From Clostridium thermobutyricum (lineage in GTDB: Bacteria; Bacillota; Clostridia; Ch29): 64,000 nucleotides of DNA. The translations under genes and the position numbers were made by a program. The notes under the pieces were generated by a model that worked only from the letters and a program-made list of their open reading frames with translations, did not search any database and was not told where the DNA came from. The DNA lies in contig JAENYD010000012.1 in assembly GCA_016842005.1 (NCBI GenBank), positions 1-64,000 on the forward strand, given 5' to 3'. Of this stretch, positions 42,685 through 55,625 are shown in pieces (the first letter of the stretch is position 1; the number at the start of each line of letters is the position of its first letter).

Positions 42685-43230
42685 TTACCTTCTCTGCTTC
42701 AGGAGGTATATCTCCTTCTCGGTTTCCGAGCTTTTATGTACAAGAAATCTCACGGTGTCCTTGATTTCTCCCAAAGTTTGCGTTGTCTCTGTCCTGAATT
42801 CGGTGAGTTCGGCGGTCTGGTCGTATACGGCATCCAGCTTTCTCTCAATACGCTCCTGGCCTTCCTTGAGGGAGAAGACGTCAACCTTCAGGTCTGTTAC
42901 GTCCTCCTTCAGACCGGACACATCTTCCTTCAGGACAGATACATCCTCCTTCAGACCGGACACATCTTCCTTCAAGCCGGATACGTCTTCCTTCAGACCG
43001 GATACATCCTTTTTCAGGCCCGACACGTCCTCCTTCAGACCGGATACATCCTCCTTCAGGACAGATACGTCTTCCTTCAAGCCGGATACGTCTTCCTTCA
43101 GGACAGATACGTCTTCCTTCAGACCGGATACATCCTCCTTCAGACCCGATACGTCCTCCTTCAGACCGGATATGTCTTTCCTCGTTTCCTTCAGTTCATC
43201 CACAATCTGGTGAAGCAATTTTTCTTCCAA
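42685..43230 (-). CDS. Coiled-coil protein with tandem SGLKEDV heptads
   Basis: After EEKLLHQIVDELKETRKD come about thirteen near-identical heptads (SGLKEDV or SVLKEDV), two degenerate units, and a C-terminal region ending LLKQRR that continues as coiled coil. No membrane segment is seen. TTG at 43230 is used because AAAGGGGGA lies 6 nt upstream. The 21-bp DNA repeat is prone to copy-number change. Such proteins occur in Clostridia and have no assigned role. It shares the design 'short helical head, tandem heptads, coiled tail' with the gene at 25799. Confidence 0.72.
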   Translation of the reverse strand: MEEKLLHQIVDELKETRKDISGLKEDVSGLKEDVSGLKEDVSVLKEDVSGLKEDVSVLKEDVSGLKEDVSGLKKDVSGLKEDVSGLKEDVSGLKEDVSVLKEDVSGLKEDVTDLKVDVFSLKEGQERIERKLDAVYDQTAELTEFRTETTQTLGEIKDTVRFLVHKSSETEKEIYLLKQRR

Positions 43231-43432
43231 GTTCAGTCCCCCTTTTCTCAATATTCATTTTCTGAGACCTTACCTGGTTGTCAATGATTTACACTAAAAT
43301 TATATAGAACATGTGTTCTATTGTCAAGAAATATTTCCTGCCCCCCAGTGTGAGCAAGGGGAGGAAGAAGCAGGGGGACGGTTCCGATAGTTCGTGCTAT
43401 AAGCTGAAAGTCCCGCCTGAAGTACGGTTGGC

Positions 43433-44357: not shown

Positions 44358-46481
44358 TCACCGGCCCGTCTCCTCGGGTTTCATCTCTCCCTCCAGTAAA
44401 TCCATAAGCCTGCACAGTATTACGGCTGCCTGGGCCCTGGTGGCATATTCATCCAGATAAAGACTGCCATCCTCGAATCCTCTGATCAGGCCCAGTTTCA
44501 CAGCCCTGTCGGTACCTGCACAGGCACCCATGCTGCCGTAAGATATTTCGGAAGGGAGCATACCATGGTCGGTGATTTCGACAATTTCTCCGCAGCCATG
44601 CCTTTCTCCTGTCATCTTGTCGTAAATACTTGAAGTATATACCGCCATATCCCTTCTGGTCATATATCCTCCGGCATCATAATTCCTGCCCCTGTCCGGT
44701 CCGGCATTGAAGGCTGCATATACCATATCTGCAAAATCCCTGAACAGCACGGGTTCATCCGGCAGATACCTGTCCGGGAGACCCTGACACAGACCCATTG
44801 ACGCAACCCTGTCTATCTCCTCCTCCGCCCAGTGGCCTGTAATATCCCCATAGGGGCTGCGGTAATTCACGCCGGTGAAAGAGCCCTGCCCCTTCACCCG
44901 GAACTCAATACCTGCCCCAACTGCTTCAATATTGTCGTATATGCATACCGGATGGCCGGAGTCCGGGTAATGCAGCAATCCTGTTCTCTCTCCTTCATAT
45001 ATCTGATTCTCCGGGATGTCGACAGTTAATGTAACCGGAAAAGATTGAGGGAAATTGTTAAAGTAAATGCTTAAACTATCGGTCAGAAGAGAGAACCCCC
45101 TGCGGGATGAAATGAAATCACGGACCGGGGAAGGGTCTTCTTTTGTCAGGGTTATTTCCAGGTCCTCTTCGTCCCCATGAGCTGTGCATCGGGAGGTCCT
45201 CAGTCCGATGCGGCCCAGCCTGCCGGCAATGATAATATCCATTGTGCGCTTTTTGGCCTTTTCTATCAGTTCCCCTTCCAGCCAGAAGACCTCCTGCAAA
45301 ATTTGTTTTCCCGGGAAATAATCTGTCGTATCTATAACAATCCTGTCCGGCTGCTGATGTCGAATTGTGCGGTCCAAATATTCATGCCACACTTTAACTT
45401 TAACTTTAAAAGTTCCATCCGCCAGGGGCATCAGGATACTGTAAATGTCTTTTCTGTCGGATTTGCCGCTGCCGGGATGGGATGATTTCTTAACCGGAGG
45501 GACTGTCAGCTCAAGAGGGACACTGGGCTGACTGAAGTAAAGACCGTCCCATGCCTTTACGTATATGGTATAACCCGTATCACCGGCCAGGCCTTCCAGG
45601 GTAAACCGGGTATCCGAAGTGGTGCTCTCTTCGCTGCCGTCCACATACACGTGATATGACTGCAGACAGCTGTCTTCAACAGGGTCCCATCCGATGAGCA
45701 CCCTGCTGCCTTCAATTGAAAGGATGCGTAAATTCTGGGGAGGAAGAGGGGGAGTAACGTCCATGAGGAAGTTCACCTGCTGACCGGTATCCATATTATA
45801 GGTGCCGTCACTTACGCACAGTTGGGCGGTATACCAGCCGTCCCCGAAGGCATGGCATCCGCTGAGGTCCAGAACCCATGCGGAATAATTGACACCAGTA
45901 TTCTGGACGGGAATGAGATATGCCGAGGGGTCCTCCGCAGTTTCAAAGGCTGTAAGGTCAGGAGCCAGATACCTGCCCTGGCTGTCGGTTATCCGGGCCG
46001 CAGCCTCCATGACGGTACCGTCGGCATCTCCGGCAGTACCGGTAATCTGAATCCCTGTGCCCAGCCGGTCCCCTTCCTCAGGGTATGTAATACTGCCATT
46101 GGCGTTACCGTCGTAACCCCCTTCCCTTTCAGTAGTAACTGTAACGGTATTGGAAAAGGGACCTGCGCTGCATCCATCATATGCGTTCACTTTGAAGCTA
46201 TAGATGGTGTCCGGATCCAGCCCTGTGACATCATAGACGGTCAATACCGGAGAATACAGATGATAAAAACTCCCGCCCTCTTCAGCTTTATACACATTGT
46301 AACAGACAATATCGTCATCACCGGGAGATGTCCATCGGAGTCTTACCGACCCGGATGTCAGATTGCAGAAGGTGATGTCCCGCGGGGCACCGGGAGGAGG
46401 GTTTTCCTCCGCCGCCGAGGGGGAAAAAGAGATGAGCAGCAGAAGAAAAGGTATCAAGATAAAAAAACATTTTCGGTTCAT
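44358..46481 (-). CDS. FN3- and SLH-domain cell-surface protein
   Basis: The 707-residue exported protein has a signal peptide (FILIPFLLLLISFSPSAA), an FN3 domain at about residues 33-118 (SGSVRLRWTSPGDDDI), an Ig-like middle region, a second FN3 at about 245-330 (EGSRVLIGWDPVEDSC), a linker with KSSHPGSGKSDRKD, a beta-rich region and C-terminal SLH units (ITGHWAEEEIDRVASMG; the last ending LIRGFEDGSLYLDEYATRAQAA). The ATG follows GGAGG. It has its own promoter at 46568, and further upstream a c-di-GMP riboswitch. Whether the riboswitch governs this gene by read-through is open. Confidence 0.88.
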   Translation of the reverse strand: MNRKCFFILIPFLLLLISFSPSAAEENPPPGAPRDITFCNLTSGSVRLRWTSPGDDDIVCYNVYKAEEGGSFYHLYSPVLTVYDVTGLDPDTIYSFKVNAYDGCSAGPFSNTVTVTTEREGGYDGNANGSITYPEEGDRLGTGIQITGTAGDADGTVMEAAARITDSQGRYLAPDLTAFETAEDPSAYLIPVQNTGVNYSAWVLDLSGCHAFGDGWYTAQLCVSDGTYNMDTGQQVNFLMDVTPPLPPQNLRILSIEGSRVLIGWDPVEDSCLQSYHVYVDGSEESTTSDTRFTLEGLAGDTGYTIYVKAWDGLYFSQPSVPLELTVPPVKKSSHPGSGKSDRKDIYSILMPLADGTFKVKVKVWHEYLDRTIRHQQPDRIVIDTTDYFPGKQILQEVFWLEGELIEKAKKRTMDIIIAGRLGRIGLRTSRCTAHGDEEDLEITLTKEDPSPVRDFISSRRGFSLLTDSLSIYFNNFPQSFPVTLTVDIPENQIYEGERTGLLHYPDSGHPVCIYDNIEAVGAGIEFRVKGQGSFTGVNYRSPYGDITGHWAEEEIDRVASMGLCQGLPDRYLPDEPVLFRDFADMVYAAFNAGPDRGRNYDAGGYMTRRDMAVYTSSIYDKMTGERHGCGEIVEITDHGMLPSEISYGSMGACAGTDRAVKLGLIRGFEDGSLYLDEYATRAQAAVILCRLMDLLEGEMKPEETGR

Positions 46482-46567: not shown

Positions 46568-46596
46568 ATTCTACAATATTCTGGATTAATTGACAA
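46568..46596 (-). promoter_or_regulatory. Promoter of the FN3-SLH gene
   Basis: On the minus strand TTGTCA (46591-46596) and TAGAAT (46568-46573) are 17 bp apart, about 85 nt before the ATG. It lies downstream of the perfect hairpin at 46628, so the gene can be transcribed independently of the riboswitch. Confidence 0.55.
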
Positions 46597-46627
46597 TGTT
46601 GTTGCTATAATAAATATTTTTGCAAAA

Positions 46628-46667
46628 GCAGCAGGATACCGGCAATTTATTGCCGGTATCCTGCTGC
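46628..46667. terminator. Perfect 18-bp hairpin, probable terminator
   Basis: The arms 46628-46645 and 46650-46667 are exact complements (GCAGCAGGATACCGGCAA) with a 4-nt loop. On the minus strand it is followed by TTTTGC and on the plus strand by ACAAAAAAG, so the T-tract is modest. It would end the transcript that begins at the riboswitch promoter. Confidence 0.6.
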
Positions 46668-46887
46668 ACAAAAAAGATATGGCCGGATGCTCCCGTCACT
46701 ATAGAGGCTGTAGAGGCTGCCCATTGTTCGCCGTGAAACAATCGGTCCCTGCCGGCTATACAGCCGAAACAAAAAACTCCTTCGGATGTGCTCCCCGTGT
46801 AGAGCATGGAAGAAAGCTTTTCTCGAATATTTCGCCCTTTGCTGAAGCCTTTGACGGAAAGACGTTATACGTCCAGGGCCTGTCAGT
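46668..46887 (-). ncRNA. Unexplained structured segment downstream of the riboswitch
   Basis: About 220 nt on the minus strand contain several short hairpins (TGCTC/GAGCA, CCGAA/TTCGG, GGCT/AGCC, ATTGTT/AACAAT) and two related stretches (CGGATGCTCCC and CGGATGTGCTCCCC, read on the plus strand, at 46684 and 46783). No open frame with a ribosome site is present. The ATG frame at 46807 lacks one. It lies between the riboswitch terminator and the 18-bp hairpin. It could be a small RNA, a second regulatory RNA domain or a degenerate gene. Confidence 0.35.
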
Positions 46888-46927
46888 ACAAACAAAAAGC
46901 GCGCTTCCGGGATACCAGGAGAAGCGC
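46888..46927 (-). terminator. Terminator of the c-di-GMP riboswitch expression platform
   Basis: On the minus strand GCGCTTC (from 46927) pairs with GAAGCGC (to 46901) and is followed by GCTTTTTGTTTG. It begins about 35 nt after the aptamer, a usual distance for a transcriptional riboswitch. Confidence 0.75.
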
Positions 46928-46960
46928 AATAATCAATAAGATAAAGAAAAAGAGCTTTTT

Positions 46961-47045
46961 TTCGGCAGCCCGGCCGCCATGGCATCGCTTTAGGCCCGTA
47001 GCTTTGCGTCCCCGTCTTTCGGCGGGTTTGCCTTTTCGTTAAAGC
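46961..47045 (-). promoter_or_regulatory. Cyclic di-GMP-I (GEMM-I) riboswitch aptamer
   Basis: The minus strand carries the conserved core in the right order: AAAGGCAAACC, a GAAA-capped stem, GGACGCAAAGC, a GGGCCTAAAGCG segment and a closing GCCATGGC...GCCGGGCTGCCGAA arm corresponding to the tetraloop-receptor helix. These match the established GEMM-I consensus element by element. The aptamer starts about 30 nt after a predicted promoter and is followed by a terminator. It senses cyclic di-GMP, a signal for surface attachment and motility. The regulated product is unclear because the next gene has its own promoter. Confidence 0.9.
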
Positions 47046-47076
47046 TGCATTTCGACATTTTATTCTGTCAATGTTC

Positions 47077-47105
47077 ATTATATATCATCCTTTTCTCAAA
47101 CTCAA
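47077..47105 (-). promoter_or_regulatory. Promoter of the riboswitch transcript
   Basis: On the minus strand TTGAGT (47100-47105) and TATAAT (47077-47082) are 17 bp apart. Transcription would start near 47070, placing the aptamer close to the 5' end. The promoter lies just after the kamA stop codon. Confidence 0.75.
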
Positions 47106-47129: not shown

Positions 47130-48374
47130 TTAACCGCCATGCCTCGCTCTTCTTTCCAGTCCTTCGGGCTCCAGGGCGATATTGCGCCCTTCCAGCAGCC
47201 CCGCCACGCCTGTGGATGCCTTCTCCCCGCGGCAGTCCTCGCAGGTGCAGGGCTCGCTTATGTACTGCGGTTCAATATACGTAGTGATAACGCCTTCGTA
47301 GTTTCTGAGGACCACCTTCCTGTCGGACATGGATATGAGGTACTGGGGCATTACGGGTATCTTCCCGCCGCCCCCCGGGGCATCCACCACAAAGGTAGGT
47401 ACTGCAAAGCCAGACGTGTGTCCCCTCAAACCTTCTATTATCTCTATACCCTTTGCCACCTTTGTCCTGAAATGTTCTATGCCCACAGACAGGTCGCACT
47501 GGTATATATAGTAGGGTCTTACCCGCATCCTCACCAGCTGGTGCACCAGTTTTTTCATTATGTGCACGCAGTCGTTCACTCCCCTCAGAAGCACCGTCTG
47601 GTTCCCGAGGGGTACTCCCGCATCGGCCAGGAGCCTGCAGGCCTCTTCCGAAGCAGGGGTCACTTCCCTGGGATGGTTGAAGTGAGTGTTAAGCCATACG
47701 GGGTGGTATTTCTTCATCATGTTTACCAGCCCGGGTGTTATGCGTTGCGGCATAACCACAGGGGTACGGCTGCCTATCCTGATTATTTCCACATGGGGTA
47801 TTGCCCTCAGCTTCCTCAGAATGAATTCCAGTTTGTCATCGGATATTAGAAGGCCGTCCCCTCCGGATATGAGCACGTCCCGCACCTGGGGCGTGTTCCT
47901 GATGTATTCTATGGCCTTTTCTATCCTCTCGTCGGGCATGGCCATATCGGTCTGCCCTGCAAATCTCCTGCGGGTACAGTGCCTGCAGTACATGGAACAC
48001 TGGTCTGTTACCAGAAGCAGCACCCTGTCAGGGTACCTGTGGGTAAGGCCTTCCACAGGAGAGTCGGTGTCCTCGTGAAGGGGGTCTTCCATATCGCCCT
48101 CGCCCCTGTGCATCTCAAGGGCAGTGGGTACGGCCTGCTTTCTAATGGGACATTCCGGGTCATCGGGGTCCATAAGGCCCGCATAATAAGGTGTGATACC
48201 CATTCTCAACAGCGACAGGCTTTCGCCTATAGTCTTCTCTTCCTCCGGAGTAAGGTTTATCACCTCTTTAAGCTGTTCGACAGTGGTTATCCTGTTCTTC
48301 ACCTGCCAGTGCCAGTCATTCCACTGGTCCTCCGATACCCCCCTGAAAAGCTTTATTTCTTTATAACTTCTCAT
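47130..48374 (-). CDS. kamA: Lysine 2,3-aminomutase
   Basis: This is a radical-SAM, PLP-dependent enzyme converting L-lysine to L-beta-lysine. The iron-sulfur motif CSMYCRHC gives Cys126, Cys130 and Cys133. The PLP lysine lies in APGGGGK, and both substrate aspartates are kept (YQCDLS and VVDAPGG), which separates it from glutamate 2,3-aminomutase. The C-terminal CTCEDC is the zinc site known from the clostridial enzyme. The ATG has GGGAGGAG upstream. No beta-lysine acetyltransferase or other lysine-fermentation gene is adjacent, so it may serve osmoprotection or a pathway encoded elsewhere. Confidence 0.95.
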   Translation of the reverse strand: MRSYKEIKLFRGVSEDQWNDWHWQVKNRITTVEQLKEVINLTPEEEKTIGESLSLLRMGITPYYAGLMDPDDPECPIRKQAVPTALEMHRGEGDMEDPLHEDTDSPVEGLTHRYPDRVLLLVTDQCSMYCRHCTRRRFAGQTDMAMPDERIEKAIEYIRNTPQVRDVLISGGDGLLISDDKLEFILRKLRAIPHVEIIRIGSRTPVVMPQRITPGLVNMMKKYHPVWLNTHFNHPREVTPASEEACRLLADAGVPLGNQTVLLRGVNDCVHIMKKLVHQLVRMRVRPYYIYQCDLSVGIEHFRTKVAKGIEIIEGLRGHTSGFAVPTFVVDAPGGGGKIPVMPQYLISMSDRKVVLRNYEGVITTYIEPQYISEPCTCEDCRGEKASTGVAGLLEGRNIALEPEGLERRARHGG

Positions 48375-55584: not shown

Positions 55585-55625
55585 GCGCAAAAAAAGCCGG
55601 GGAAAATCCCCGGCTTTTTTTGCGC
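55585..55625. terminator. Strong bidirectional terminator after the SASP gene
   Basis: An 18-bp perfect stem (GCGC, seven A, GCCGGGG at 55585-55602, and its complement at 55608-55625) with a 5-nt loop carries T7 on either strand. It begins right after the stop codon of the small spore protein gene. Confidence 0.92.

Follow-up and report, generated by a model that had tools for sequence, protein, structure and literature searches.

The locus raises the question of which gene, if any, is controlled by the c-di-GMP riboswitch that lies between kamA and the FN3-SLH gene in the window, that is, the whole 64,000-nt stretch of DNA analysed. The upstream gene (47130-48374, minus strand) is kamA-like and belongs to the lysine 2,3-aminomutase family of radical SAM enzymes (Pfam LAM_C, E 3e-38; Radical_SAM). 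The downstream FN3-SLH gene (44358-46481, minus strand), which has the ribosome site GGAGGTG, encodes a secreted protein of 707 aa that has FN3 and SLH domains, two of each (Pfam fn3, E 7e-24; SLH, E 2e-8). Elsewhere in the window, 42685-43251 (minus strand) encodes a coiled-coil protein built from nearly identical seven-residue repeats of the LKEDVSG type. Flanking genes are all on the minus strand, and the order read along that strand is kamA stop codon, promoter-like site, aptamer, terminator, spacer, 19-bp hairpin, second promoter-like site and FN3-SLH. The layout given in a preliminary description of this DNA, in which the riboswitch and its terminator are followed by a non-coding stretch, a hairpin and a promoter-like site ahead of FN3-SLH, is real. 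The aptamer is 478 nt from FN3-SLH, the next gene, with the second terminator-like hairpin and the promoter-like site in between.

The c-di-GMP riboswitch between kamA and FN3-SLH is genuine as judged by its match to the c-di-GMP-I-GGC model. The aptamer (46960-47041, minus strand) matches RF03167 at 74.1 bits against a gathering threshold of 59 (E 1.1e-15), covers the model in full (1-80 of 80) and has the top score among the six copies in the genome. It is followed by the riboswitch terminator (46890-46927, minus strand), a GCGCTTC-loop-GAAGCGC hairpin of about -13 kcal/mol that runs into GCTTTTTGTTT. When the aptamer was enforced in a constrained fold, P1 and the terminator both formed. The strand GAAATGC (47047-47053, minus strand) is predicted, from folding only, to act in the ligand-free state as an antiterminator by pairing with the terminator's 5' arm. 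In folds of transcripts ending at 46914-46920, GCGCTTC (46927-46921) paired with GAAATGC (47053-47047) with a probability of 0.7-0.9, which excludes the aptamer's P1, and the probability of P1 itself was about 0.02. Folding predicts, although not strongly, that c-di-GMP promotes termination.

A putative promoter for the riboswitch unit, TTGAGT-17-TATAAT (47077-47105, minus strand), lies 25 nt past the kamA stop codon, and its distance from the aptamer is as expected; it was recognised by consensus match only (10/12). The promoter scan returned 9 sites against 4.0 in shuffles, and any single site is accordingly weak evidence whose position counts. Directly past this promoter, TGTCGAA at 47057-47051 (minus strand) resembles a Spo0A box.

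The second hairpin would probably be an intrinsic terminator. The feature (46624-46667, minus strand; -35.4 kcal/mol) consists of a perfect stem at 46628-46667 with a 2-nt gap, followed by TTTT. A perfect hairpin had been reported here with a stem of 18 bp; the hairpin is present, and its stem is 19 bp. Only one other perfect 19-bp hairpin occurs in the 64-kb window, at 55585-55625, where A and T tracts lie inside the stem and which is probably a bidirectional terminator. The sequence after the hairpin at this locus is TTTTGCAAAAAT, and its T-tail score is equalled by about 1.2% of the 15-mers in the window. Past the hairpin, as the preliminary description had also proposed, a putative promoter for FN3-SLH with the promoter-like sequence TTGTCA-17-TAGAAT is found at 46568-46596 (minus strand), where it was identified by consensus match and by a similar site in two relatives.

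These relatives bear directly on the question of whether FN3-SLH needs the riboswitch. Each of the other five family genomes has a kamA orthologue of 81-85% identity, and in two of these five (G004 and G005) an FN3-SLH orthologue, with 43-45% identity over the first 320 residues, directly follows kamA after a gap of about 180-250 bp. The intergenic regions of these two genomes have no riboswitch, gave no Rfam match and share no significant sequence with that of the window. Just upstream of their FN3-SLH genes is TTGTCA or TTGCCA-17-TAGAAT, with the 17-nt spacing and the TAGAAT of the window, and these promoter-like sites of the relatives end roughly 72-87 nt ahead of the start codon. The plain identity of the 42-nt promoter block between relatives was no better than in shuffles, so the likeness, which rests on hexamers, spacing and position, is suggestive only. 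In the other three family genomes the region downstream of kamA is different or unreadable, and no examined relative keeps a riboswitch at the kamA/FN3-SLH locus. The GTDB 220 contigs yielded no FN3-SLH orthologue, and the kamA search of the same contigs found relatives of 76% identity or less only. The shared gene order and promoter-like site in G004 and G005, where there is no riboswitch, indicate that FN3-SLH does not need the riboswitch in these relatives, and thus that the riboswitch unit of the window was either inserted or kept from an ancestor.

The riboswitch transcript probably ends before any gene, given its two terminators, the separate promoter that lies past them, and the relatives that share gene order and promoter but have no riboswitch. 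The preliminary description had put forward a short, c-di-GMP-gated, structured RNA; the early end of the transcript has the support of the layout and the relatives, whereas the structured RNA is unsupported. We put at about even the chance that the locus holds a self-contained, orphan c-di-GMP-I riboswitch unit, between kamA and a separately promoted FN3-SLH gene, that makes no special RNA. RNA polymerase would start near 47069. When c-di-GMP is bound, P1 (47046-47041 with 46958-46953) and the terminator would form and an RNA of about 180 nt would be released; when the ligand is absent, the 5' flank at 47053-47047 would capture the 5' arm of the terminator and the polymerase would continue to the 19-bp hairpin. 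The read-through product would be non-coding and about 445 nt long, with its 3' end at this hairpin, and FN3-SLH would be transcribed from its own downstream promoter. The short RNAs might, for example, soak up c-di-GMP.

Some observations count against an orphan unit. A decaying relic would hardly be expected to hold the best-scoring aptamer of its genome, unless the unit is recent or useful; the promoter likeness between relatives goes no further than hexamers, spacing and position; and genes for FN3 or SLH proteins are direct riboswitch targets elsewhere (loci L029 and L034 of the same genome, with FN3 and PA14 domains, and L060, with SLH domains), which favours control of FN3-SLH. A long leader of FN3-SLH, the alternative named in the preliminary description, is therefore the main rival: it is possible, if somewhat improbable, that the riboswitch sits in such a two-step leader and controls FN3-SLH by read-through of the ligand-controlled terminator and, to some extent, of the 19-bp hairpin, adding to expression from the proximal promoter. 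This is plausible given the targeting of FN3/SLH surface proteins by this riboswitch class in the genome and family, the score of the aptamer, and the conservation of two-hairpin leaders elsewhere, with two species of family f4 sharing a 440-nt leader of this kind ahead of a sensor gene. Furthermore, the 19-bp hairpin has a T-tail of moderate quality only (TTTTGCAAAA), with a mid-range score of 3.13. However, good termination would be expected from a perfect stem of 19 bp (about -35 kcal/mol) and four U, and the promoter-like site past the hairpin is matched in place by relatives that have no riboswitch.

The other copies of the riboswitch offer a comparison for an orphan unit. The genome has six c-di-GMP-I-GGC copies, against four to nine in each of the other family members. 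Of 91 copies, which were gone through with a simple script and in part by eye, nearly all are followed by a sense gene at a distance of about 12-300 nt. The unit in the window resembles a typical RF03167 riboswitch in its full aptamer and terminator but lacks the gene that is usual within this distance. A second terminator-like hairpin before the first gene was found in few cases, namely the window, L057, L046 and the pair L235/L243, a count that serves as a guide only, since the script misses terminators at many loci. Locus L057 (G004:C13:12406-12492) has an aptamer, a terminator, a short spacer, a second terminator and a new promoter ahead of an unrelated transport-type lipoprotein gene. It is likely a second orphaned c-di-GMP riboswitch in the family and is the closest match to the layout in the window; an aptamer similar to that of L057 precedes a different secreted-protein gene in G005. 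If the unit in the window is an orphan, it shows the detachment of riboswitches from genes in a family with 4-9 copies per genome.

The non-coding spacer between the riboswitch terminator and the 19-bp hairpin (46668-46889, minus strand; 222 nt) has neither excess structure nor relatives. The preliminary description had seen many short hairpins in these 220 nt, yet they are no more than chance would give: 211 nt of the spacer had a folding energy of -65.1 kcal/mol where shuffles averaged -59.9 (sd 4.8), so that z was -1.08, and 31 of 200 shuffled sequences were as stable. A longer stretch that includes the 19-bp hairpin reached z = -5.0, which is due to that hairpin, and in sliding 100-nt windows z fell below -3 only where the hairpin was included, whole or partly. 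The gathering-level Rfam search for a known RNA family returned the aptamer alone, and the top sub-threshold matches (mir-15 and IMPDH RNA) stem from the perfect hairpin. The preliminary description had seen no frame with a ribosome site here, and no frame in the spacer looks coding. Open reading frames of 48-143 aa that cross the spacer, considered as a hidden gene, scored -0.11 to -0.44 bits per codon and had no Pfam match past the cut-off, compared with +0.28 for kamA, +0.41 for a neighbouring beta-lactamase-fold gene and +0.18 for FN3-SLH (scores trained on 31 long ORFs from the 64-kb window).

Neither the spacer nor the hairpin recurs elsewhere in the genome. No convincing relative of the spacer was found in 60 near genomes, and no DNA relative in a set of 291 class genomes, the others of which all come from outside the genus; the best non-self matches were 23-46 nt long, with single-genome E values of about 1e-4 that are unremarkable over 291 genomes. 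Nor did the spacer have relatives in plasmids or phages, or resemble the surroundings of 90 other c-di-GMP-I-GGC riboswitch copies. Conservation of a fast-evolving spacer within the genus is still conceivable; most likely, the 220-nt spacer has no conserved RNA function. Several other origins were considered and rejected: a mobile or repeated element, as the hairpin and spacer are single-copy in the genome and absent from plasmids and phages; a recent duplication of one of the genome's other riboswitch loci, to which the aptamer alone aligns; and an invertible switch, as no long, highly complementary inverted repeats surround any segment. The spacer also contains a perfect tandem 9-mer, CAGCCTCTA CAGCCTCTA, at 46719-46702 (minus strand).

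These data bear on a further reading, which we consider unlikely, in which the 220 nt and the hairpin form a c-di-GMP-gated, lineage-specific, trans-acting small RNA that is made on read-through of the terminator and holds no protein-coding gene. The non-coding unit between a promoter-like site and a terminator-like hairpin, the good preservation of the aptamer and the precedent of riboswitch-containing non-coding RNAs such as merRNA are in its favour, and the tandem 9-mer, mostly unpaired in the predicted fold, could be a pairing region. However, the spacer shows no fold signal, matches nothing in Rfam and is not conserved in any of the genomes examined, and the structured small RNA of the preliminary description is unsupported on the first two of these points, for lack of a relative in the 291 class genomes, and for lack of similarity to the surroundings of the 90 other riboswitch copies. 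It is very improbable that the unit serves as a regulated 3' end of kamA, whose transcripts would enter the riboswitch and stop at either hairpin. In favour of this, no terminator is predicted in the roughly 25 nt from the kamA stop codon to the promoter-like site. Against it, that site lies directly ahead of the aptamer, no link between kamA and c-di-GMP is known, and no riboswitch lies downstream of kamA orthologues where the region is readable.

Among known systems, Rli55 and EutX are B12-riboswitch-controlled, ANTAR-sequestering small RNAs with paired hairpins that carry six-base loops; the unit in the window would be like them in that a riboswitch decides whether the non-coding transcript is short or longer. 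In Bdellovibrio, merRNA is a massively expressed non-coding RNA of 445 nt that contains a c-di-GMP riboswitch but no ORF, and it has been proposed to be a c-di-GMP store (PMC3627812). The unit in the window would similarly give a c-di-GMP riboswitch transcript with no ORF and has a predicted length of about 445 nt, but expression of merRNA was measured, whereas the present unit is known from its DNA and is likened to merRNA by layout. If it were a functional non-coding RNA, a Clostridia-type case would join the very few known gene-less c-di-GMP riboswitch transcripts, such as merRNA. Whether it is functional or an orphan, calling FN3-SLH c-di-GMP-controlled from the nearest riboswitch is unsafe without transcript data.

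Of all riboswitch families, those for c-di-GMP have the strongest tendency to antisense layouts (PMC9943018). The antisense-acting c-di-GMP-I riboswitches described there likewise have no sense gene; the unit in the window differs from them in having no opposite-strand gene, and an antisense-acting riboswitch was rejected here, the plus-strand ORFs of 125 and 78 aa scoring -0.11 and -0.39 per codon. Such a layout was seen at two other loci from two different families, L257 and L258 (aptamers at 301-390 on the riboswitch strand), where a c-di-GMP-I-GGC aptamer and terminator are followed by an opposite-strand XRE/HTH-like ORF at about +190 to +518, with no sense gene for about 0.9-1.1 kb, as in the published antisense-acting XRE case from Paenibacillus (PMC9943018).

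Two further sets of leaders were noted among the copies examined. At L235 (1555-2089, minus strand) and L243 (1545-2089, minus strand), the two f4 loci, a c-di-GMP-I aptamer and terminator precede the 440-nt leader and a PAS-type sensor gene; the leaders are 80% identical between the two species and the second terminator-like hairpin is conserved. In the flgB leaders of the family (L028, L040-L042, L044 and L045), a common conserved block, ATGAAGGA..ATGATGAA..TATCGAATATT, lies between the riboswitch terminator and flgB.
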